From assembly GCA_949291125.1 (NCBI GenBank), contig CASEUJ010000015.1, positions 1 to 64,000 of the forward strand: a DNA stretch of 64,000 nt, written 5' to 3'. The stretch is from an uncultured Ruminococcus sp. GTDB lineage: Bacteria; Bacillota; Clostridia; Oscillospirales; Ruminococcaceae. Below, in pieces: positions 31,743-41,820 of this stretch; the stretch's first letter is position 1; every line of letters begins with the position of its first letter. The position numbers and the translations under genes were made by a program. The notes under the pieces are model-generated. The model was not told the origin of the DNA, made no database searches, and was given only the letters and a program-made list of their open reading frames with translations.

Positions 31743-31771
31743 TTGACAGATTGCATGAAACCCAGTATAAT
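31743..31771 (+). promoter_or_regulatory. promoter of the SGNH-dockerin gene
   Basis: TTGACA (31743-31748), 17-base spacer, TATAAT (31766-31771). Confidence 0.82.
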
Positions 31772-31852
31772 AGAGAAGAGCATTTTTCATGCGGTATGAA
31801 AATCTCCTCTGCTGCGGAACTGCCGCAGCCCGTAAAAAGAAAGGATTGTCTT

Positions 31853-33118
31853 ATGTTACCACGTATGTTTCAGAAATGTATCGCTGCTGTATGTGCGACG
31901 GCATGTGCTGTAGGTGCGCTGTCGCTTTCGACACTGCATGCGGCTGCGGATGCAGCACGTCCGGTCGAAGTGCTTGCGCTCGGGGATGACTGTTTGGCGG
32001 AGATCGCCGGCGGCAGTTCTGCGGCTGAGATTATGGCGGCGTATTTTGGCGGCACATCGACCAACTATGCCGCAGTCGGTACCACTTCGGCAGATCTGCT
32101 CTCTGATCTACAGTCTGATGCTGCACTCCGACAGGATGTGGCAGAGGCGGATGTCATTCTGGTTTCTGTTGGCGTCAATGATCTTCTTGATGCGGTTTTC
32201 TATGAAAATCCCAATCTGCCGGATGCTGCTTCCCAGACAACGCTGATCAATCTGATCCGCTCAATGCCGACGGAAAAGGCACTGGATGTCGTCAACTATG
32301 TGCTCGATACACTCCCGGGCACAGTTTCTACCATCAACAGTAACCTGCAACAGGTCGTTTCACAGATCCGACGCCAGAATCCGCAGGCGAATGTTGTGGT
32401 GCAGACAGTAAATAATCCGCTTGCCATTGACTTCAACGATGCCGACTGGCTGGCGAACATTTCCACGAACCGCCAGCTTGCAACGGCAGAACTCTATTTT
32501 TATCTCAATGCCTGTCTTGAGGGCGGATCGTATGAAAGTTCGATGCTTTTGGATTCAACGCTTACGATCCCGACCGGTGTGAATGAGTCGATCGAATCGC
32601 TCAGCGGTGTTTCAAAAGCGGATTTCTATGATGCATTTGTCGGAGCCGACGGGGAGACCGGCATGGCGTTTGAGATCACCAATTTTGCAAACCTCGATAT
32701 GACGTTTTCTCCGGTTGGACAGGTTGTGCTTGCGGCTGCGGCAATTTGTGCGGATGACCGATTCACTGGTGGAAATGGCGGTGCGCTGACGGAAGCATAT
32801 GATGCCGCAGATCCGGATCATAATCTCTCTGCTATGCGTGTGTCGCTTCATGATGCGATCACGGATGCGGCGGCAAATACCGCGGTAACCTATATCCGCG
32901 GTGATATCGACGGCGATACCAGAATCACCATTCAAGATTCTTTCCAAGTGCTTGTGGCATATACAAATAGCAATGCTGGAAACGCGATTGATTTCACCCC
33001 GGCGCAGCGCTGTGCCGCAGATGTGGATGACGACCATGATTTCACCATTCAGGATGCATTTTCCATTTTGCTTTATTATACATCGGAGTCTGCCGGAAAC
33101 GCACCAAGCTGGAACTGA
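31853..33118 (+). CDS. dockerin-bearing SGNH/GDSL-like hydrolase
   Basis: 421 residues. After a signal peptide (about 1-32) comes an SGNH-like fold: EVLALGDDCLAE stands where GDS is usual, with GDD replacing it, followed by LVSVGVNDLLD (block III GxND). The usual serine is therefore not obvious. The C-terminus is a dockerin with GDIDGDTRITIQDSFQVL and VDDDHDFTIQDAFSILL repeats and a GNAPSW end. The start at 31853 follows AGAAAGGA. If active it would be a cellulosomal esterase; loss of the serine could mean a binding role. Confidence 0.75.
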   Translation: MLPRMFQKCIAAVCATACAVGALSLSTLHAAADAARPVEVLALGDDCLAEIAGGSSAAEIMAAYFGGTSTNYAAVGTTSADLLSDLQSDAALRQDVAEADVILVSVGVNDLLDAVFYENPNLPDAASQTTLINLIRSMPTEKALDVVNYVLDTLPGTVSTINSNLQQVVSQIRRQNPQANVVVQTVNNPLAIDFNDADWLANISTNRQLATAELYFYLNACLEGGSYESSMLLDSTLTIPTGVNESIESLSGVSKADFYDAFVGADGETGMAFEITNFANLDMTFSPVGQVVLAAAAICADDRFTGGNGGALTEAYDAADPDHNLSAMRVSLHDAITDAAANTAVTYIRGDIDGDTRITIQDSFQVLVAYTNSNAGNAIDFTPAQRCAADVDDDHDFTIQDAFSILLYYTSESAGNAPSWN

Positions 33119-33331
33119 TCGAGGAAAGATCCATGCGAACCACTGTGTGAAATTGCGGTGAATCCGATTTTTGCAAAGCACTCGTTTGTATTTTACCCTC
33201 TTTTCCATCAGCTATCATAAAATTATCACATAAAACCGTATAATAAATATTACAGCAACAGGATAAGAGCTGTAAGCCAATCGGATACGGTAAAAGGCTA
33301 TTTTATGAAACGTGGAAAGGAAGCATGCGAT

Positions 33332-34891
33332 ATGGCTGATTATGAAAAAAACAACAACACCAACACCAATCAGGAACACGGGACAGATCCGGCAAATCCA
33401 TATACCACACCGGACGGCAATGACCCGTATGCATACCAGAAAGGATATTATCGCAATACAACGCCGCATCAGGATGAATCTGTTTACAGTGGCGCACAGC
33501 AGACTTCTCAGACCGGGAACACCGGACAGCCGAAACAAGACGGCGGCTATACCTATGTGAATTATTATTCCAACCCGAATGGCACTGACCCGGGAAATCT
33601 GCATAAAAAGCCGAAGAAAAAACATACAGGGCTGAAAGTAATGGCGGCAGTTCTGGCGATGGCAGTTGTTTCTGGCGCCTCGATTGGCATTTATGAAGGT
33701 ATCCGCACCAGTCTTGATGTACAGGATCCGGTGCTCTTTGATTCGGCATCTGTGACACAGTCTCCATCCGATGATGCACAGGGTGGCGGTGAGGATTCCA
33801 CAATACAGTCGGATGCAAACGCTTCATCTGGAAATGATGAGACTTGGATTCAGCTTGCTTCGAAAGATGGCTCACTCTCTGTGGCAGATATTGTGGAAAA
33901 GGTAACGCCTTCGGTTGTCGGTGTACAAGCAACTTTCACATCTGCTTCCAACAATGACAACACATTTAATTACTTCTTTGGCTATGGCAACCAGAATTCC
34001 GGAAGCGGTCAGGCAACCGGCGTTGGCACAGGCATTATCATGTCGGAAGATGGCTATATCATTACCAATGCACATGTCATTTATGACGATGAATACGGCT
34101 ATGGCGAGGCGACCGCAGTACAGGTCACGATGTCCGATCAGGAAACGGTTTATGATGCAGAGATCACCGCATATGATCAGGAGGCAGACATTGCCGTTCT
34201 GAAAATTGATGCAGATGGACTGACGGCGGCCGAATTCGGCGACAGCTCGACATTACAGGTCGGCGAAATGGTTGTTGCGATCGGGAATCCGCTGGGACTT
34301 GAGTTCCAGAATACGGTAACATGCGGTATTATTTCTGCCCTGAACCGTCAGGTCACCATCAATGACAACACCATGACGCTGATCCAGACCGACACCGCGA
34401 TCAACAGCGGGAACTCTGGCGGTCCGCTTATCAATAGTTCCGGTCAGGTTATTGGCATTAACTCCGCGAAAATGTCCTCGACTTATTCGACAAGCGGTGC
34501 TTCGATCGAAGGCATTGGTTTTGCAATCCCGATGACAGAGGCAAGAGAGATCATTGACGATCTGATCAACTATGGCTATGTGACGGGGCGGCCGCAGCTT
34601 GGCATTACCTGCCAGAATGTGCCGGAGAATATCTCACAGACCTATAATATCCCGGTCGGTGCATATATTATTAGTGTCACCGACGGCGGTGCCGCAGATC
34701 AGGCGGGTTTACAGCCGGCTGATGTTATCACCGGCATCCAAGGCGAAACGATCACGACAATCGAAGAGCTCAATGCCATTAAAAATGAGTACAATGCCGG
34801 CGATACAATCACATTGACTGTGATGCGCAATGGTCAGGAACTCACCGTTGATGTCACGCTCGAGGAAGTGCAGGCAACTGCCAATAACTGA
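33332..34891 (+). CDS. HtrA/DegP-type membrane-anchored serine protease
   Basis: 519 residues. A long Asn/Gln/Thr-rich cytoplasmic tail (1-90) leads to one membrane segment (about 95-113), then a trypsin-like domain with His248 (TNAHV), Asp286 (ADIAVLKID) and Ser362 (NSGNSGGPL), and one C-terminal PDZ domain (about 415-505). It degrades misfolded exported proteins outside the membrane. The ATG at 33332 was preferred to 33305 because AAAGGAAG is correctly spaced. Confidence 0.93.
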   Translation: MADYEKNNNTNTNQEHGTDPANPYTTPDGNDPYAYQKGYYRNTTPHQDESVYSGAQQTSQTGNTGQPKQDGGYTYVNYYSNPNGTDPGNLHKKPKKKHTGLKVMAAVLAMAVVSGASIGIYEGIRTSLDVQDPVLFDSASVTQSPSDDAQGGGEDSTIQSDANASSGNDETWIQLASKDGSLSVADIVEKVTPSVVGVQATFTSASNNDNTFNYFFGYGNQNSGSGQATGVGTGIIMSEDGYIITNAHVIYDDEYGYGEATAVQVTMSDQETVYDAEITAYDQEADIAVLKIDADGLTAAEFGDSSTLQVGEMVVAIGNPLGLEFQNTVTCGIISALNRQVTINDNTMTLIQTDTAINSGNSGGPLINSSGQVIGINSAKMSSTYSTSGASIEGIGFAIPMTEAREIIDDLINYGYVTGRPQLGITCQNVPENISQTYNIPVGAYIISVTDGGAADQAGLQPADVITGIQGETITTIEELNAIKNEYNAGDTITLTVMRNGQELTVDVTLEEVQATANN

Positions 34892-35031: not shown

Positions 35032-35059
35032 ACCTCTGCCGGCAAAACCGCATACAATA
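35032..35059 (+). promoter_or_regulatory. sigma-K-type promoter of dpaA
   Basis: AC (35032-35033), 17 bases, then CATACAATA (35051-35059), which fits the sigma-K -10 pattern CATAnnnTA exactly. In Bacillus the dipicolinate synthase operon is sigma-K dependent. No sigma-A promoter is obvious here. Confidence 0.6.
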
Positions 35060-35182: not shown

Positions 35183-36007
35183 ATGAAAACCGATCGGGTG
35201 ATGTTGTTTGCCGGCGGCGATACACGTATGTGTTTTGCCGCCGAAACCCTGAGCGCGCTGCCGGGATGGCGGATCGAATCCATCCTGCCGGCAAGGCCAT
35301 TCGATATACCGGAAATTCATACCTGTGCGGATCCGGTACAGATACAGACACTTTTGCCATGGGATGTGTTGGTGCTGCCTGTGCCGGCGTCAAAGGATGG
35401 CGCGTCTGTTTTTGTTGCACCGCCGCATCCACCGCTTTCCCTCGATACACTGTTGTCTGCCGGAAAACCCGGAGCATGGGTGCTTGGCGGTGCATGCTGT
35501 CCGGCGGTGTCCGAAAAAATCCGTGCCGCAGGGCTGTCCTTTGTAGACTATTGTCAGGATGAGAGCCTCGCCCTCGCAAACGCCGTGCCCACCGCAGAAG
35601 GTGCGATCCAGATCGCCATGGAAGAGATGGACACCACACTACAAGGCGGCCGTGCTGTGATCATTGGCTTCGGCAGGATTGGCATGGCACTCGCACCGCG
35701 GCTCCGGGCACTGGGAATGGATGTCACGATCTGTGCCAGACGCCGTGATATGTGTGCACAGGCACAGATGCTCGGTTTCAGGGCGGCACTGCTGCCGCAG
35801 CTGGCAGATCTCTGTGCAGCGGCGGATCTTGTAGTGAATACCGCTCCGGCACTCGTGATGGGTGCGGCGGCGCTTTCCCGTCTGCCGCAGCATGCGTTGG
35901 TGATTGACCTTGCCTCAAAGCCGGGTGGGGTGGATTTTTCCGCAGCAAAACGCCTTGGCAGACAAACGGTGTGGGCTTTGGCGCTTCCACCGGCGGGGTG
36001 GGCGTGA
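35183..36007 (+). CDS. dpaA: dipicolinate synthase subunit A, N-terminal part, interrupted by an inserted element
   Basis: The frame gives 274 residues. DpaA, with DpaB, makes dipicolinic acid in the mother cell for the spore core. Seen here: the Rossmann core VIIGFGRIGMALA, PTAEGAIQIAMEE and the family's IDLASKPGGVDF. Homologues continue with LPGxVAPxTAGxII; this frame instead ends ALALPPAGWA. The true sequence to residue 269 ends at the CCA of 35987-35989; the last five codons and the stop come from the inserted element. The missing 29 residues are at 41154-41243. The start follows GGAGGGAGC. As it stands the product lacks its C-terminal helix. Confidence 0.9.
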   Translation: MKTDRVMLFAGGDTRMCFAAETLSALPGWRIESILPARPFDIPEIHTCADPVQIQTLLPWDVLVLPVPASKDGASVFVAPPHPPLSLDTLLSAGKPGAWVLGGACCPAVSEKIRAAGLSFVDYCQDESLALANAVPTAEGAIQIAMEEMDTTLQGGRAVIIGFGRIGMALAPRLRALGMDVTICARRRDMCAQAQMLGFRAALLPQLADLCAAADLVVNTAPALVMGAAALSRLPQHALVIDLASKPGGVDFSAAKRLGRQTVWALALPPAGWA

Positions 36008-36011
36008 CACT
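35964..36011 (+). mobile_element. attL, left junction of the dpaA element
   Basis: The predicted crossover dinucleotide is CC at 35987-35988, inside the CCA codon for Pro269. Left of it lies dpaA (half of attB); right of it the element half of attP, ending in TGACAC (36005-36010). Confidence 0.65.
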
Positions 36012-36133
36012 AAGGCCGGTAATTTCACCGAAAAAAGGGAAAATTGAAAGCATGCTGTGCAAAAATTGTGTAAAAGCGACAAAAATGGGAATAATATTAT
36101 CGCGAGAATTTCAAAAAAATTGAGCAAATAGAC

Positions 36134-36162
36134 TTGACAGGAGCAAAATAATATGTTAAAAT
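36134..36162 (+). promoter_or_regulatory. promoter of the element's dockerin gene
   Basis: TTGACA (36134-36139), 17-base spacer, TAAAAT (36157-36162). It gives a leader of about 185 bases. The stretch 36012-36130 shows no gene. Confidence 0.75.
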
Positions 36163-36350
36163 ACTTGTGTAATTTATTTACGAGGTCTGTACAAGGTACT
36201 TGTAAATAATGCAATACTTGCCGTTGACGGCGCATGTCAGAGAGAAAGCGGATCTCTCCCGGCATGAAACCGTTGAAATGTTTGGGGATTGGATAAATCG
36301 GTATCCATTCAGGGCGGCAAAATACTTATCGAAAAGAGAGGTAAAAAAGA

Positions 36351-38495
36351 ATGAAGAAGAATCGTAGCAGAATTCTTGCTGCAGCCGTCGCAATTCCGGT
36401 TGCACTGAGCCAGATCTTCGCGATTTCTGCTTTGGCAATTGATGTTCCGACTGGAACGACCACGATTGGCACGACACAGGTGCTGCGTGTTCCGGGCAAC
36501 ACCAATTTCCCGGCAGATGCTGCTGATACACTGGCACAGGATGGCTTGCAGACAATCACATTCGAACAGGAATCTGTATGGAATGAGACACTGGCAGGTA
36601 TTCTGGGGAATGTAGCAGACGGCACATCGGTTGAAGTAGCAGTTACTGATCTGGCAGACGTGTTTGGAAACACCTATTTTGGCGGTATCCTGCGCGATGT
36701 ACTGCTTCAGTCCGGTAATGCAACTGCAACATATGACGCAGCTGCAAAGGAAGTTACCATCGAGGGCAGTCTGGATCTTTCCGCTTATTTACAGGCTGAA
36801 CTGGACAAGGTAGTTGATGAAAATCCGGTATATGCAGAATATGACATTGACACAACACTCGATACCACTTATACTTCTGGCATTGACTATGTAGTAACAG
36901 TTGGCTGTGATTTTGAAGCAGGCAAGACTGTTACCGGCAGCGCAGTATTCAACACGCCGAATGGTGAGTACACTGTAACCACAATTGCAGATTACATGGA
37001 TGTTGTTTACAACGATCTGGCTGCACAGCTTGATGCAATTGCCGAAGAAGTTGCCGGCGCAAAGGGCGATGCAACTGCGGAACAGGCAGAACTGAAGGAA
37101 GTAATCGATCTGCTCAAGCAGAAGATTGATCAGGTTTCGAATATTATTACGTTGGCACAGAACGCAACACTGCGTGGTGACAAGTCTTATGCAACTTTCA
37201 CTGATGCATATGCTGCACTGAAGGATTGGGCTGCGAAGAAGTGGCCGAACGCATCGAATAGACTGCCGGATACTGCGGATGAGGCATTCACAAAGTATGC
37301 TTCGAAGTTTGAAAAGGCTGTTGAGATCGTTAACGATGCACTGTCGCAGAGCGGCGCAAATGTTGTTCTCGATGTAACAACAGACGATGTAAAGGCTGTA
37401 TTTGATGGTGCAACAGATATCTATGCAACCACACCGGATGCTGGCGTTCTGGTTGCTGAGGCTATAATCGAAGTAGACGAGGCAGACGCACAGTATGATG
37501 ACGTTGTTGCTTACATCAGCGATCAGGATGTCGCTTCTCAGCTCGATATGAACACACTGACAACCGCTAAGAAGATGACTGTTACAGTTGATGTGAAGGC
37601 TGGCACTGTAGACTTTGACGTTGTTCGTGAAGTTTCTGTAACTGAGGTTGACCCGGCTACTACCACCACAACCAGTGATGTGGTAACCACGACAACTGAA
37701 TCTGGCGAAACAACGACTGGTTCGGCTGATACTACAACTGCAACTGGTGATGATACCACAACAACTGAATCTGGCGAAACAACGACTGGTTCGGCTGATA
37801 CTACAACTGCAACTGGTGATGATACCACGACAACTGAATCTGGCGAAACAACGACTGGTTCGGCTGATACTACAACCGCAACTGGTGATGATACCACCAC
37901 CACAACACAGGTGATCCCGCCGATTAATGAGATCGAATCGGTTTCTGCTGAGGTTGGCGAGAGCGTATACTTCAGCACCGATGAGGAATTCGATGTTTCT
38001 GAGCTCGTATTCTCTGTTGTTGTAACACTGACAGACGGTTCACAGGTAACGATTGATGATCCGGCAAGCGTAATTGAATTCGCAAGCACTCCAGTCGAGA
38101 TTTATAACGCAATTGAGGGTGACGAAAAGTACTATATCGGTGGCGTAGAGATCTCCTATGTAGATGCAGAAGGCAATAGCATGGATATCGCAGAACAGCC
38201 GACAGTCGGCGTTGCGCTTAAGGGTGACGTTGTAATGGATGGATATCTGGATATTAGCGATGCTTACACTGTTTTGATGTATTTTACTCAGGTTAACATT
38301 GGTCAAAATCCGACATTTACTGGTGATGCGGATACACTGCTTGAAAGACTCGCATTCTTTGTTGCTGACGTTGATGAAGAATCGAAGAATATGGAAGGCG
38401 ATATTCTGATTAGTGACGCACATGCAATTCTGATGAAGTATTCAAGCGAACAGTCTGGTTCCAATACGCCGTGGGAAGATATTCTAGCTGATTGA
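36351..38495 (+). CDS. secreted protein with Thr-rich linker and C-terminal dockerin
   Basis: 714 residues. A signal peptide (1-29, ending ALA) is followed by a region of about 410 residues without a recognised family, containing a helical stretch (AEQAELKEVIDLLKQKIDQV). Then come a Thr/Ser/Gly linker with three 23-residue repeats (448-516), a beta-sandwich-like module (about 525-620) and a dockerin (about 625-714). The first dockerin repeat is GDVVMDGYLDISDAYTVLM; the second carries an insert before GDILISDAHAILM. RBS AGAGAGG. It lies inside the dpaA element next to a cohesin gene, so the two may interact, but specificity cannot be read from sequence. Confidence 0.78.
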   Translation: MKKNRSRILAAAVAIPVALSQIFAISALAIDVPTGTTTIGTTQVLRVPGNTNFPADAADTLAQDGLQTITFEQESVWNETLAGILGNVADGTSVEVAVTDLADVFGNTYFGGILRDVLLQSGNATATYDAAAKEVTIEGSLDLSAYLQAELDKVVDENPVYAEYDIDTTLDTTYTSGIDYVVTVGCDFEAGKTVTGSAVFNTPNGEYTVTTIADYMDVVYNDLAAQLDAIAEEVAGAKGDATAEQAELKEVIDLLKQKIDQVSNIITLAQNATLRGDKSYATFTDAYAALKDWAAKKWPNASNRLPDTADEAFTKYASKFEKAVEIVNDALSQSGANVVLDVTTDDVKAVFDGATDIYATTPDAGVLVAEAIIEVDEADAQYDDVVAYISDQDVASQLDMNTLTTAKKMTVTVDVKAGTVDFDVVREVSVTEVDPATTTTTSDVVTTTTESGETTTGSADTTTATGDDTTTTESGETTTGSADTTTATGDDTTTTESGETTTGSADTTTATGDDTTTTTQVIPPINEIESVSAEVGESVYFSTDEEFDVSELVFSVVVTLTDGSQVTIDDPASVIEFASTPVEIYNAIEGDEKYYIGGVEISYVDAEGNSMDIAEQPTVGVALKGDVVMDGYLDISDAYTVLMYFTQVNIGQNPTFTGDADTLLERLAFFVADVDEESKNMEGDILISDAHAILMKYSSEQSGSNTPWEDILAD
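37692..37898 (+). repeat. three tandem 69-bp repeats (Thr-rich linker)
   Basis: Copies begin at 37692, 37761 and 37830 and are nearly identical at the DNA level, encoding TTESGETTTGSADTTTATGD-type units. The length is a multiple of three, so copy-number change would keep the frame. Confidence 0.92.
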
Positions 38496-38508
38496 TCAAA
38501 ATTTACTA

Positions 38509-38537
38509 TTGACAAAATCGTAAATTTGTGATAAGCT
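38509..38537 (+). promoter_or_regulatory. promoter of the cohesin gene
   Basis: TTGACA (38509-38514), 17-base spacer, TAAGCT (38532-38537). The -10 box is imperfect. Confidence 0.55.
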
Positions 38538-38617
38538 TGTATATGGATGTGGTGCGGGGTGCATATCGCGTCGCAGACATATCATAATAAATTATTATTT
38601 GAAAGGAATAACTAAAA

Positions 38618-39340
38618 ATGAAGACTACATTTAAGAAGACTATGGCAGCTCTTTCTGCTGCTGCAGTTGTAGCTGCATCTGCTGCTGTTATGGCTATGCC
38701 GGCAAGCGCAGAAGGTTCTATCACAATTGATACAGTTGAAATTACTGAGAGCCAACTGGCTGCTGCAAATTATGAAGTATCCGTTCCGATCATTGCAAGC
38801 AATGACTTTACAACACTGGCTGTTGGTATGACTCTTGATGAGGGTCTGACATTTGTAGCAGGCACAGCTAGTGGCGGTCTGGTTGCAGCTGATGCAAACG
38901 GTCAGTTTGTATGGTATGCACTGATGAACGCTACTGAGCTGGCTGGTGCATCTACTGCTGCTGTTACTGTTACAGTTGAATCTACAGCAAAGGCTGGGGA
39001 TGTTTACAATCTGGTAGGTACACCGCTGAACACTGAGGGTGTTGACAGATCTGATCTGAATGGTACTTCGGCTGCTGTATCTGGTGGTTCGATTGTAATC
39101 GTTGAAGATCCGACAGAAGCTCCGACAGATGCTCCGACAGATGCTCCGACTGAAGCTCCGACAGATGCTCCGGTTGCAACCCCGACTCCGACCACAGCTC
39201 CGGCTCCGACCGCTACTTCTACTACAAAGCCGTCTTCTTCCAGCTCTCCGAAGACTGGCGATGCTCTGCCGATCGCTGGCGTAGCTGTTGCAGTTGCTGT
39301 AATCGGTGGCGTTGCTCTGGTTTCCAAGAAGAGAAAGTAA
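38618..39340 (+). CDS. cell-wall-anchored single-cohesin protein (scaffoldin-like)
   Basis: 240 residues. Signal peptide (1-31, ending ASA), then one cohesin-like jelly-roll domain (about 33-160: VEITESQLAAANYEVSVPI, LAVGMTLDEGLTFVAGTA, GDVYNLVGTPL). A Pro/Thr/Ala linker (PTEAPTDAP units) and a sortase signal follow: PKTGD, a hydrophobic stretch and the basic tail SKKRK. Ruminococcal ScaE-type proteins anchor cellulosomes to the wall in this way. It is the anchor partner expected for dockerins such as those in this window. GAAAGGA precedes the start. It lies inside the dpaA element. Confidence 0.8.
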   Translation: MKTTFKKTMAALSAAAVVAASAAVMAMPASAEGSITIDTVEITESQLAAANYEVSVPIIASNDFTTLAVGMTLDEGLTFVAGTASGGLVAADANGQFVWYALMNATELAGASTAAVTVTVESTAKAGDVYNLVGTPLNTEGVDRSDLNGTSAAVSGGSIVIVEDPTEAPTDAPTDAPTEAPTDAPVATPTPTTAPAPTATSTTKPSSSSSPKTGDALPIAGVAVAVAVIGGVALVSKKRK

Positions 39341-39398
39341 GAGAATGTGCGTAACGGCGCACATCGCAACTGAATAAATCTATGCGTTGCATAGTAGA

Positions 39399-39435
39399 AG
39401 GCATCCATGGCTTTGGCCGTGGGTGTCTTTTTTTT
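39399..39435 (+). terminator. terminator of the cohesin gene
   Basis: Stem GGCATCCATGGC/GCCGTGGGTGTC (G-T pairs) with a TTTG loop and nine T. It ends only about 37 bases before the recombinase start. Confidence 0.82.
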
Positions 39436-39471
39436 TGCTCGTGCGCGTAAACTGGAGAAGAGGTGAGAAAT

Positions 39472-40959
39472 ATGACAGCAATTTATGCGCGCCAGTCCGT
39501 CGAACGCCGAGAGTCGATCTCCATTGACATGCAGGTCGAAGCATGCAAACGCTTGATCCCAGAAAACACCGAAATCCGTATCTATACTGATCGCGGCTTT
39601 ACCGGTACGAATACAGCGCGTCCTGCATTTCAGGAGATGCTCTGTGAGATCCGCGCCGGAAAGATTCGCGCCGTCTATGTCTATAAGCTCGATCGTATTT
39701 CCCGTTCGCTCTGCGACTTTGCCGCGATGATGCGTCTGTTCCGGGAACACGGAACAAAGTTGTATTCCTGCCGCGAAAACTTTGATACTGCAAGCGAAAT
39801 CGGCAATATGCTGCTTCATCTATTAATGATGTTCGCTGAACTGGAACAAAAGACGATCGCCGGACGCGTCCGCGATAATTATTATGCCCGTGCCGCTGGA
39901 CATCTGCCGCTTGGCGGAACGGCTCCCTATGGCTATCGCACCATTGCCACCACAGTTAATGGAAAAAATACCACATCTCTTTCCCCGATTTCCGACGAAG
40001 CAGCGCAAGTGAAGTGGTTTTATACACATTATGCGCTCTATGGCGAAAATGTGGAACAGCTTGTACATGCGGCGAATCATTCCGGTAAGCTGACGCGCCA
40101 TGGAGCACGTTGGTCAAACAGCGCAGTATTGCGCATTCTACGTAATCCGGTCTATATCCGCGGGGATCTGCGAAGCTGTGTCTATTTACAGGAGAAAGGC
40201 GTAATCTTAACGCATCCGATCGCATCCTATTGTGACGGCAACGGCTGGTTGTTATACGGCGATAAGCACAGCCGACATGGCGAAAAATGGTCAAACCTCA
40301 AAGGGGAACATCTCGCAGCGGGGCTACATTCGGGGATTGTGGATGCAAATCTGTGGCTTGCGGTACAACAGCGCCTTTCTCATCGCGGCGGCAATACGAC
40401 ACGCGGCACTGGCCATACATCATGGCTCCAAGGCTGTGTCACCTGCGGACTTTGCGGGCTAGCGTGTTATACGCGGTGGAATGGCAAGGGAAAACAGTAT
40501 ACGTATCTGGTTTGCCGTGGAAAACGTCAGGGCATCTGTGGCGGTATCCCTGCACTCAGGGTGGGCGATGTCGAGGCTGCAGTTGAGCCAGTCCTAATGC
40601 AGTGTGTGGCACAGGTGTTGCCCCATGCGGAAGAAGGAGCGCCGCCAAAAGCTGACCCGACAGAGATTGCGCTCGAAGAACTGGAAGCCAGAATGCAGCG
40701 GATCGCGGCGGCAATGGGTGAGCCATCGGCAGCAGTGCCGTATCTGCGGCGTGAGCTAGAAACGCTGGCGCAGAAACGGCATGCGCTTGAACAGGAGCAG
40801 AAACTGCGTCAAACGTCGCCGCGTTCCAACAAAGAACTGATCCGACGGTGGGAGCACTGGTGGGGATCGGCAGACATCGCGCAACGCAGATGTGTGATAG
40901 AATTATTGGTACAGGAGATTCGCGTGTTTCCGGAAAAAGTGGAGGTCTATCTGGCGTGA
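39472..40959 (+). CDS. large serine recombinase
   Basis: 495 residues. The N-terminal resolvase domain has catalytic Ser9 in YARQS and the partner motifs YKLDRISRSLCDF and AELEQKTIAGRVRDNYYAR. A recombinase domain follows (about 155-270), then a zinc-ribbon (CVTCGLCG ... CRGKRQGICGG, about 325-365) and a coiled coil (about 400-460). This is the architecture of serine integrases and of the skin-excising SpoIVCA/SpoIVCA-like enzymes. The ATG at 39472 follows AGAGGTG. As the gene nearest the right end of the dpaA element, it is the obvious candidate to excise or integrate it. Confidence 0.92.
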   Translation: MTAIYARQSVERRESISIDMQVEACKRLIPENTEIRIYTDRGFTGTNTARPAFQEMLCEIRAGKIRAVYVYKLDRISRSLCDFAAMMRLFREHGTKLYSCRENFDTASEIGNMLLHLLMMFAELEQKTIAGRVRDNYYARAAGHLPLGGTAPYGYRTIATTVNGKNTTSLSPISDEAAQVKWFYTHYALYGENVEQLVHAANHSGKLTRHGARWSNSAVLRILRNPVYIRGDLRSCVYLQEKGVILTHPIASYCDGNGWLLYGDKHSRHGEKWSNLKGEHLAAGLHSGIVDANLWLAVQQRLSHRGGNTTRGTGHTSWLQGCVTCGLCGLACYTRWNGKGKQYTYLVCRGKRQGICGGIPALRVGDVEAAVEPVLMQCVAQVLPHAEEGAPPKADPTEIALEELEARMQRIAAAMGEPSAAVPYLRRELETLAQKRHALEQEQKLRQTSPRSNKELIRRWEHWWGSADIAQRRCVIELLVQEIRVFPEKVEVYLA

Positions 40960-41007
40960 GTATAGGTGCGACATGGCACAAAGATTGTGCGCCAGATGTA
41001 CCAGTAG

Positions 41008-41061
41008 ATTTTTCGTCGGATGAAGCAAAATATGCATGCGAGTATTAGTCTGACGAAAAAT
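41008..41061. repeat. inverted repeat near the right end of the element
   Basis: ATTTTTCGTC (41008-41017) and GACGAAAAAT (41052-41061) with a 34-base loop. It could be a terminator-like structure for the recombinase gene or a protein site. The rest of 40960-41130 shows no gene. Confidence 0.5.
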
Positions 41062-41130
41062 ATACAAGCAGATGGCGAGCAAAGCCGTCAGGCGGTCTAT
41101 GTACGGTGTTGCCTTTTTATGATGCCGCAG

Positions 41131-41177
41131 GGTGTCATTGCCACCGCTCCGCACCAGGCCGCGTTGCCCCCAGAACT
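41131..41177 (+). mobile_element. attR, right junction of the dpaA element
   Basis: The crossover CC is at 41154-41155. GTGTCA (41132-41137) is the element-side arm, matching TGACAC of attL in mirror position. GCCCCCA (41166-41172) mirrors TGTGGGC (35970-35976) on the dpaA side. Confidence 0.65.
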
Positions 41178-41243
41178 GCCGGCAGGATCATTTCTGATAC
41201 GATCCGTCAAATTCTTGAAGAAAGGGGACTCGCCTATGCTTGA
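41154..41243 (+). CDS. dpaA: dipicolinate synthase subunit A, C-terminal part (detached)
   Basis: Thirty codons without a start: PGRVAPRTAGRII, then SDTIRQILEERGLAYA and TGA. It supplies exactly the LPGxVAPxTAGxI end that is missing from the frame at 35183. Its first codon CCA equals the last genuine codon of the left part. The final TGA overlaps the dpaB start by eight bases. It makes no protein unless the 5,167-bp element is removed. Confidence 0.85.
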   Translation, partial: PGRVAPRTAGRIISDTIRQILEERGLAYA

Positions 41244-41820
41244 TTTCACAGGGCAACGAATCGGCTTTGTCGTCACCGGTTCGTTCTGCACCTTTTCCGC
41301 CGCCTTTGAACAGGCAAAAAAACTCAGAGCCGCCGGCGCATTACTGACGCCGGTTTTCTCAGAACATGCCGCCGAGATCAATACCCGGTTCGGCAAAGCT
41401 GATGTGCGCTTGCGCGAACTCGAAGAGATCTGCGGGGCGCCTGCCATCTGCACCATTTCCGGCGCAGAGCCTTTCGGGCCAAAGGATCTGTTGGATCTGT
41501 TGGTCGTCGCGCCTTGTACAGCGAATACGGCGGCAAAGCTTGCGCATGGGATCACGGATACGACTGCTACCATGGCGGTCAAATCCATGCTGCGCCGGCA
41601 AAAACCCATTGTCCTTGCCATCGCCACGAACGATGCGCTGCGTGCGTCCGCCAAAAACATCGGGCTTTTGATGAATACAAAGCACTTTTATTTCGTGCCC
41701 CTGCGGCAGGATGCACCAAAGGAAAAACCGGCATCGCTCGTGGCAGATTTTGACCAGCTGTGTGAAACCGTCGATCTGGCAAGAAAAGGAACGCAAATTC
41801 AACCAATATTCATACAATAG
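41236..41820 (+). CDS. dpaB: dipicolinate synthase subunit B
   Basis: 194 residues of the flavoprotein-fold DpaB/SpoVFB family: GQRIGFVVTGSFCTF at the start, SEHAAEINTRFGKA, EPFGPKDLLDLLVVAPCTANT, GITDTTATMAVK and the ending ADFDQLCETVDLA. Works with DpaA to form dipicolinate. AAAGGGG precedes the ATG, inside the dpaA tail. With the element present dpaB is cut off from the sigma-K-type promoter at 35032, so it too would need excision for normal expression. Confidence 0.93.
   Translation: MLDFTGQRIGFVVTGSFCTFSAAFEQAKKLRAAGALLTPVFSEHAAEINTRFGKADVRLRELEEICGAPAICTISGAEPFGPKDLLDLLVVAPCTANTAAKLAHGITDTTATMAVKSMLRRQKPIVLAIATNDALRASAKNIGLLMNTKHFYFVPLRQDAPKEKPASLVADFDQLCETVDLARKGTQIQPIFIQ

Follow-up and report, generated by a model that had tools for sequence, protein, structure and literature searches.

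Programmed excision during sporulation is known for few genes, and the elements removed are mostly phage remnants. Intervening elements have been described in sigK, spoVFB, spoVR, spsM, and gerE, with skin, vfbin, vrin, SPbeta, and gin as the named precedents (PMC4191935, PMC5595907, PMC5025042; these and the other papers given by PMC number are cited from extracts of their text), and one has been reported in yabG (PMC10747680). Here we describe a 5,167-bp segment that splits the dipicolinate synthase gene dpaA in a 64,000-nucleotide stretch of DNA from an uncultured Ruminococcus sp. (contig CASEUJ010000015.1, positions 1 to 64,000; hereafter the window). With a probability of roughly 0.84, this segment is a gene-intervening element located at dpaA codon 269, and the large serine recombinase that it encodes is predicted to cut it out in the mother cell during sporulation, thereby restoring a frame of 297 codons. 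On our analysis, it would best be read as a developmental switch of the skin or vfbin type, with host adhesion genes as cargo.

The vfbin element of Bacillus weihenstephanensis KBAB4 likewise splits a dipicolinate synthase gene of this operon, spoVFB (dpaB), and its serine recombinase is expressed at sporulation, as is predicted for that of the window element; vfbin comes with phage-related genes, whereas the window element lies in dpaA of a gut Ruminococcus, is 5 kb long, and carries a cohesin gene and an X-dockerin gene (PMC4191935, PMC5595907). In the case of skin, found in sigK of B. subtilis and C. difficile, a mother-cell gene is rebuilt, as is predicted here, through excision by a large serine recombinase, but the gene is a different one, the element is prophage-like, and C. 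difficile skin requires the recombination directionality factor CD1234, no such factor being recognised in the window element (PMC5025042). The gin element in gerE of B. cereus ATCC10987 is similarly a non-phage element with a serine recombinase in a sporulation gene; it measures 28.6 kb and has three recombinases and a 9-bp overlap, whereas the window element has 5 kb, one recombinase, a 2-bp core, and a nearly genus-wide distribution (PMC5595907). Outside sporulation, the fdxN element of heterocyst-forming cyanobacteria and its recombinase XisF likewise act in a terminal cell, but the window recombinase falls far under the XisF cut-off.

What is new with respect to these elements is the gene, the bacterial family, the host-type cargo, and the nearly genus-wide spread. 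In the open literature, subscription journals and preprints lying outside the search, no title or abstract start among those listed reports an intervening element in dpaA or in Ruminococcus. An earlier note, made from the window sequence, had already drawn the comparison with skin and vfbin, which holds. Its proposal of an element in dpaA of a gut anaerobe stands as well; what it missed is that the split is old and nearly genus-wide, that the cargo is of cohesin and X-dockerin type, and that dpaAB is hit at two further sites. The features that define the split are the following:

35183..35989, + strand: dpaA (spoVFA) 5′ part, codons 1-269 (open reading frame (ORF) list, sequence, Pfam/NCBIfam matches)
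35989..41155, + strand: intervening element, 5,167 bp, from CC to the next CC (sequence, joint analysis)
41154..41243, + strand: dpaA 3′ part, comprising Pro269, the last 28 codons, and TGA (sequence, joined-frame and family alignment)
41236..41820, + strand: dpaB (spoVFB) (Pfam/NCBIfam matches)

Past codon 269 (CCA, 35987-35989), the dpaA reading frame runs through five unrelated codons to a TGA at 36005-36007. The ending typical of the DpaA family, PGRVAPRTAGRII onward, is found at 41154-41243, where the Pro269 codon is repeated (41154-41156). Joining the two parts from CC to CC across the gap of 5,167 bp gives 297 codons, and the TGA (41241-41243) then lies just beyond the dpaB ATG (41236-41238), so that dpaA and dpaB overlap. 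Both the displaced ending and the 297-codon joint with its TGA overlapping the dpaB start had been put forward in the earlier note, and they are confirmed to the base. The 5′ part scores above the cut-off of the Pfam model DpaA_N, and model matches reach residue 269 and no further; two NCBIfam DpaA models stay below their cut-offs (200 of 261 bits and 174 of 320 bits), as expected because the protein is truncated. DpaB exceeds the cut-off of one of two models (250 vs 156 bits; 223 vs 229 bits). The window's genome (2.2 Mb, 47 contigs, 87% complete) contains this single dpaA; a second, intact copy, which according to the earlier note would make the split one a relic, was not found in it. The interrupted sequence codes for a sporulation protein of the mother cell, the compartment in which dipicolinic acid is made (PMC5629000).

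The genus to which the window belongs is the one holding Ruminococcus callidus, and it is represented here by 16 genomes, most genomes in this study being metagenome-assembled genomes (MAGs). A whole-DpaA query matches all 16; the match is full length in one (G002) and stops near residue 252-262 of 284 in the other 15, in which dpaA is split. Both parts lie on one contig in 11 of these and on two contigs in two (G009, G013). The 5′ part alone was found in the last two, in one of which the contig ends (G003), while in the other the recombinase and dpaB are on another contig and the short 3′ part was not aligned (G012). The nearest named relative with an identical arrangement is the cultured type strain R. 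callidus ATCC 27760 (contig NZ_KI260335.1, L081), whose element measures 5,050 bp. Among 80 named loci, dpaB adjoins the recombinase in nine from Ruminococcus records (L081-L085, L093, L097, L099, L101; all MAGs except R. callidus), seven of which include the dpaA 5′ part. The comparison with relatives proposed in the earlier note did reveal the uninterrupted gene: in G002 and in other genera, DpaA is intact and continues without a break through codon 269.

Both joints were located in 13 of the 15 split genomes, all at the identical CC. Joining at this shared core restores the family ending in all 14 joined proteins (13 from the genus and one from another genus, G234). With CC as codon positions 1-2, the frame coming from the N-terminal motif ends 26-34 codons past the joint, that is, at the usual length, in 13 of the 14; in G006, it extends over 159 codons. 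That the 5′ and 3′ runs are open follows from how they were defined, and the informative point is that the CC frame reaches both the N-terminal motif and the family ending in all 14. Eleven elements of the genus measure 4.7-6.2 kb, and their lengths modulo 3 are 0, 1, or 2, which means that read-through cannot preserve the frame. A split protein, whose two pieces would be produced independently and come together with no DNA excision, is hardly credible: the 3′ part does lie within a short open frame in the window, and six of 13 genomes have an in-frame ATG within the att arm, 24 nt ahead of the joint, but an in-frame start of the 3′ part with a ribosome-binding-like sequence occurs in none of the 13, and five of them have no in-frame start at all.

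The joints themselves have the organization of attachment sites:

35961..36012, + strand: attL, with the dpaA half-site GTGTGGGC..CTT, the core CC (35987-35988), and an element half-site ending in TGACAC (36005-36010) (joint alignment, dyad)
41132..41180, + strand: attR, with an element half-site starting with GTGTCA (41132-41137), the core CC (41154-41155), and the dpaA half-site GTTGCCCCC (joint alignment, dyad)

In all 13 joint pairs, CC is the sole sequence common to both ends, the flanking bases varying between attL and attR in several genomes. A predicted attP was built from the right inner flank, CC, and the left inner flank; in the window, it has the form GTGTCA-N16-CC-N16-TGACAC. Across the 13 genomes, the attP dyad centred on CC reaches 15.92 of 26 pairs, compared to a maximum of 7.77 when the centre is slid by 1-12 bases; random CC pairs within the window element have a mean of 6.5 symmetric pairs, and 5 of 19,238 reach 16. 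The two arms lie about 5 kb apart, and pairing within the same genome (15.92) exceeds the mean obtained when arms are permuted across genomes (12.98; 0/20,000). From these alignments, the dyad at the element ends appears as expected of a serine-recombinase attP.

The enzyme that would act on these sites is encoded at the right end of the element, downstream of possible control signals:

39397..39437, + strand: hairpin and T-run, terminator-like, between cargo and recombinase (by eye in the sequence)
39446..39453, + strand: -10-like motif CGTAAACT (CATANNNT in most relatives), 26 nt upstream of the recombinase ATG (upstream alignment)
39472..40959, + strand: large serine recombinase, with GTG 39463 as alternative start (Pfam, NCBIfam, structure and PHROG matches, alignment)

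The earlier note had rightly recognised a large serine recombinase between the two dpaA parts: the protein has Resolvase, Recombinase, and zinc-ribbon domains (Pfam), solved structures related to it include the SPbeta recombinase YokA, and its best PHROG is the phage integrase family PHROG 95 (E 2.5e-94). Its best NCBIfam match is XisF (residues 8-488, 106 bits); assignment to the XisF equivalog (NF041201), which has a 375-bit cut-off, was rejected. The family is present in 14 of the 16 genus genomes, the others being G002 and G003; the YARQS start is invariant in 12/12 aligned genomes, and of the 13 genomes for which both joints were located, 12 have an open recombinase frame.

As for control, the motif C[AG]TANNNT is found 24 nt upstream of the recombinase ATG in 10 of 12 genomes, and at 25 and 26 nt in the remaining two. 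In base-shuffled upstream sequences, it occurs in at most 2/12 at one distance (0/5,000), with the count over 12 upstream regions from related genomes measuring conservation and not 12 independent events. C[AG]TANNNT resembles the -10 element of sigma-E and sigma-K promoters, and the CATANNNT motif before the recombinase accordingly resembles, by its sequence, one of mother-cell type. The genome also has uninterrupted sigma-K/E-type genes, none of which matches the sigma-K model above its cut-off. Identification of sigma-K by this model was not secured, as all 16 genus genomes match it, none above the cut-off, and 11 of 14 control genomes match as well; these matches in controls mean that the result supports a sigma-K/E-type gene only. 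A spoIVA gene is present in 14 of the 16 genomes.

Two variants of the recombinase gene deserve mention. In R. callidus (G004, L064 4762-6240), it is inverted within an otherwise collinear element, and the -10-like motif is kept. In G005 and G010 (L065, L071), the region after the zinc ribbon is much shortened. The coiled-coil motifs that control direction in such recombinases usually follow the zinc ribbon, and the shortened forms may have a bearing on excision without a directionality factor.

The left part of the element is occupied by two cargo genes and their promoter:

36134..36162, + strand: cargo promoter, sigma-A-like, TTGACA-N17-TAAAAT (exact match in 12/12 genomes examined)
36351..38495, + strand: cargo 1, 714 aa, with a signal-like start, a Thr-rich linker, and a C-terminal CttA-like X-module and dockerin (sequence matches)
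38618..39340, + strand: cargo 2, with a ScaE-like cohesin, a Thr/Pro linker, and a sortase-type tail (SPKTG..KKRK) (sequence and fold matches)

Sequence matches identify cargo 2 as a cohesin (best E 6e-15, 10uw; R. flavefaciens ScaE 2zf9, E 4e-9), and the 16 best matches in a fold search are all cohesins, the model having a mean predicted local distance difference test (pLDDT) score of 67 overall and a higher one within the domain. It combines, as ScaE-type anchored cohesins do, a cohesin domain with a C-terminal sortase-type anchor; the tail reads SPKTG rather than LPXTG, and the Pfam anchor model matches 1/12 members. The C-terminal X-dockerin of cargo 1 matches R. flavefaciens CttA (4iu2_B, E 1.6e-17), and Pfam CttA_N is found in 8/11 cargo 1 members with E up to 0.01, remaining below cut-off in the window's protein. 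Sequence and fold searches gave no significant match for the N-terminal 430 residues of cargo 1, its whole-model fold search had a best E of 0.11, and no cellulose-binding modules were recognised in it by Pfam, sequence, or fold searches. In R. flavefaciens, the wall-anchored ScaE cohesin binds the CttA X-dockerin, and both are encoded in the sca locus (PMC5301203); the window pair shares the cohesin with sortase-type tail and the X-dockerin, but lies inside dpaA, and the N-terminal part of cargo 1 sets it apart. By this analogy, cargo 1 and cargo 2 likely form a surface-adhesion unit.

The neighbourhood of the cargo in other genomes gives a hint of its origin. In the related genus g52, cargo-2-like genes are present in four of the genomes covered by the search, on the same contig as dpaA in two (G066, G298) and on separate contigs in the other two (G176, G245). 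In G066 (L263, C47:47500-67000) and G298 (L262, C2:46000-64500), relatives of both cargo genes come after htrA; reading of both loci showed no recombinase match in the stretch, and a whole dpaA(-dpaB) lies on the opposite strand, about 9 kb from the cargo-1 relative. The order in the window is htrA, dpaA 5′ part, cargo 1, cargo 2, recombinase, dpaA 3′ part, dpaB. In G002, cargo 1 stands 600 bp after htrA with no dpaA between them, and cargo 2 followed by a whole dpaA is on a second contig, both contigs ending within the cargo. Judging from gene order, the cargo looks like host DNA of this chromosomal neighbourhood, and the G066 and G298 loci are a possible source neighbourhood.

Divergence within the genus bears on the age of the arrangement. 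Over the 13 joined genus proteins (G006 trimmed), mean identity is 0.60 in the DpaA 3′ part (25 columns) vs 0.41 in the 5′ part (264 columns). Conservation is lower at the third codon position than at the first two in the dpaA 5′ part, dpaB, and the recombinase (12 genomes each), as well as in cargo 2 (11 genomes). Recombinase distances correlate with those of dpaB (r = 0.90) and dpaA (r = 0.93; 12 taxa, 0/5,000 permutations each), and cargo 2 distances with those of dpaB (r = 0.81; 11 taxa, 0/5,000 permutations), G002, G003, G006, and G012 being left out of the distance sets. Since recombinase and cargo diverge along with dpaB and dpaA, the element is old and inherited with its host. An ordinary mobile element or phage remnant lodged in dpaA, with no developmental role, is therefore very improbable. 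Its recombinase does belong to a phage-type integrase family, but this is the one gene of the element with a PHROG match, neither cargo gene matching any phage family, and the recombinase tracks host divergence; the cargo pair, moreover, stands beside htrA in a related genus, and a scan of viral contigs kept 80 matches of just 23-48% identity, none of them close. Phage-derived gene content, which is not required of sporulation intervening elements and is lacking in gin, was not found in this one.

The following course of events can be proposed. In growing cells, the recombinase would be silent and no full DpaA would be made, while the cohesin and X-dockerin cargo would be expressed from the sigma-A-type promoter. 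Expression of the recombinase would be turned on by sigma-E or sigma-K in the mother cell, and the enzyme would join attL to attR at CC and release a circle; the restored dpaA-dpaB would then make dipicolinic acid for the forespore. The element would stay in the forespore, so that the next generation would be split again. If this is true, adhesion genes in growing cells occupy the place that dpaA holds in sporulating mother cells.

Several points weigh against developmental excision, which is a prediction, as are its timing and the circle, and which presumes sporulation in the genus. No clear -35 element was seen upstream of the recombinase -10-like motif in the 12 genomes, and the CATANNNT motif is oddly near the ATG. 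Transcripts usually begin 6-8 nt after the -10 element, and such a start would fall at the ribosome-binding site; with this closeness to the ATG and no clear -35, promoter function is uncertain. No directionality factor was recognised, and beyond cargo and recombinase no ORF is common to all 11 elements. The dyad on the dpaA side is weak (11.08, vs up to 10.38 for slid centres), and symmetry does not single out the attB side. Two frame changes and a TAG interrupt the G006 recombinase, which may reflect assembly error or real decay; in the same locus (L066 7159-8630), the recombinase extends over three frames, and the dpaA 3′ frame continues beyond the usual stop. G002 has a whole dpaA, no element, and no recombinase. 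That G002 represents the ancestral state was first assumed, and then given up as a settled view when a tree placed G002 inside the split clade (support values of 1.0 and 0.9); this tree is built on two genes, dpaB and, where found (17/23), a permease, and its deep support is weak (0.41). The whole dpaA of G002 may, on this basis, reflect loss of the split or the ancestral state. Lastly, a search of 5.8 billion proteins with the joined protein returned the split form of the window itself and, among the best 120 of 4,085 matches, no near-identical full-length form.

Among these same 120 matches, 21 clusters lose the family ending after Pro269; 11 of them stop within a few residues and 10 continue into unrelated sequence, one of the latter having 1,125 members. 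The sole split/full pair above 75% identity among them is P0013/P0018 (76%), a full-length protein (P0080) and a fragment (P0090) having been set aside from this pairing; P0018 was rejected as the empty-site partner of P0013, as it reads like a chimera of two lineages. Serine recombinases also drive reversible switches, and the genome has further recombinases of this type, both of which would suit a phase variation in which the element is excised and reinserted in growing cells, unrelated to sporulation. This is quite improbable, given 21 split clusters with no near-identical joined partner among the 120 matches and a mother-cell-like motif before the recombinase.

The lack of a joined form among these matches also fits a relic, with excision lost, dpaA dead, and no dipicolinic acid made via DpaA in the genus, as does the broken recombinase of G006. 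R. callidus is usually described as non-spore-forming. R. bovis, another member of the group, is described in the same way (PMC8513621). A relic is nonetheless unlikely: conservation of the detached 28 codons exceeds that of the remainder of DpaA, the att arms vary together within genomes, 12 aligned genomes have an open recombinase frame, and dpaB shows strong conservation. Should excision be confirmed, bacteria called non-spore-forming would keep a selected late-sporulation step, and an annotation showing only a truncated DpaA would be wrong.

Splits of dpaAB are also seen outside the genus. The whole-DpaA query matches 226/297 genomes of the family, and among the matches listed, at least seven genomes from other genera have a match that ends no later than residue 267 of 292. 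In G234, both dpaA parts are on one contig with a serine recombinase between them, again at codon 269. Its target codon is identical to that of the window, the arms differ (TTTGCAA..TTGCAAA), and the dyad amounts to 17/26; the recombinase frame is open, with no ATG, GTG, or TTG at the usual start, and among its cargo are a LytR-type protein, a HAD hydrolase, a LacI regulator, and an apparent sugar transporter. In G288 and G031, the dpaA 5′ part and a recombinase are followed by the contig end, and in G231 the contig stops at the site. Recombinases at codon 269 in G234, G288, and G031 share 33-40% identity with those of the genus, and occupation of this site in the three genomes and in the genus may, from sequence comparison, reflect common descent.

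A second dpaA site lies near the KPGG motif, where a recombinase is found between both dpaA parts in three other genera: G157 (L168; element of about 3.9 kb), G116 (L169+L171; about 15.9 kb), and G313 (L170+L174; about 23.5 kb), the latter two on contigs of 1.7 and 3.0 Mb. These recombinases are 24-30% identical to those of the genus. The dyad scan singles out no one core at this site, with long shared runs of GGGG in G116 and GGGGTGG in G313. The inner element ends of G313 carry a 22-nt inverted repeat in which a single position is mismatched. A third site is in dpaB: in an Oscillospiraceae MAG (L096, 4373-12291), dpaA is whole and dpaB is split at the FCTH motif around a serine recombinase, which, judged by its gene arrangement, is a vfbin-like case outside Bacillus. 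A second Oscillospiraceae MAG (L092, 11494-11553) has a right end resembling this dpaB split, and that right end only.

That dpaAB is hit at three places in related genera points to late mother-cell genes as preferred docking sites. We lean, with some reserve, towards a broader picture in which an adhesion pair has been built into dpaA as a developmental switch nearly genus-wide, its content being of host and non-phage origin and vertically kept, and in which dpaAB is a recurrent target of separate recombinases, at two sites in dpaA and one in dpaB. The larger surprise is then the cargo, with host-type surface-adhesion genes instead of phage genes.

One further element differs in content: that of G001 (L061 9084-9899) has an additional 271-codon ORF between the recombinase and attR, which was not seen in the other complete elements. 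Upstream of dpaA, a candidate promoter was noted:

35032..35059, + strand: sigma-K-like dpaA promoter, consisting of AC, 17 nt, and CATACAATA (sequence)

A CATA-type -10 element is found upstream of dpaA in 8 of the 10 genomes reported, and AC at a suitable spacing in 5 of the 10. Further upstream, a secreted protein with a dockerin-like end (31751-33118) and an HtrA-type protease (33305-34891) were recognised by eye, and similar ORFs also precede dpaA in several relatives.

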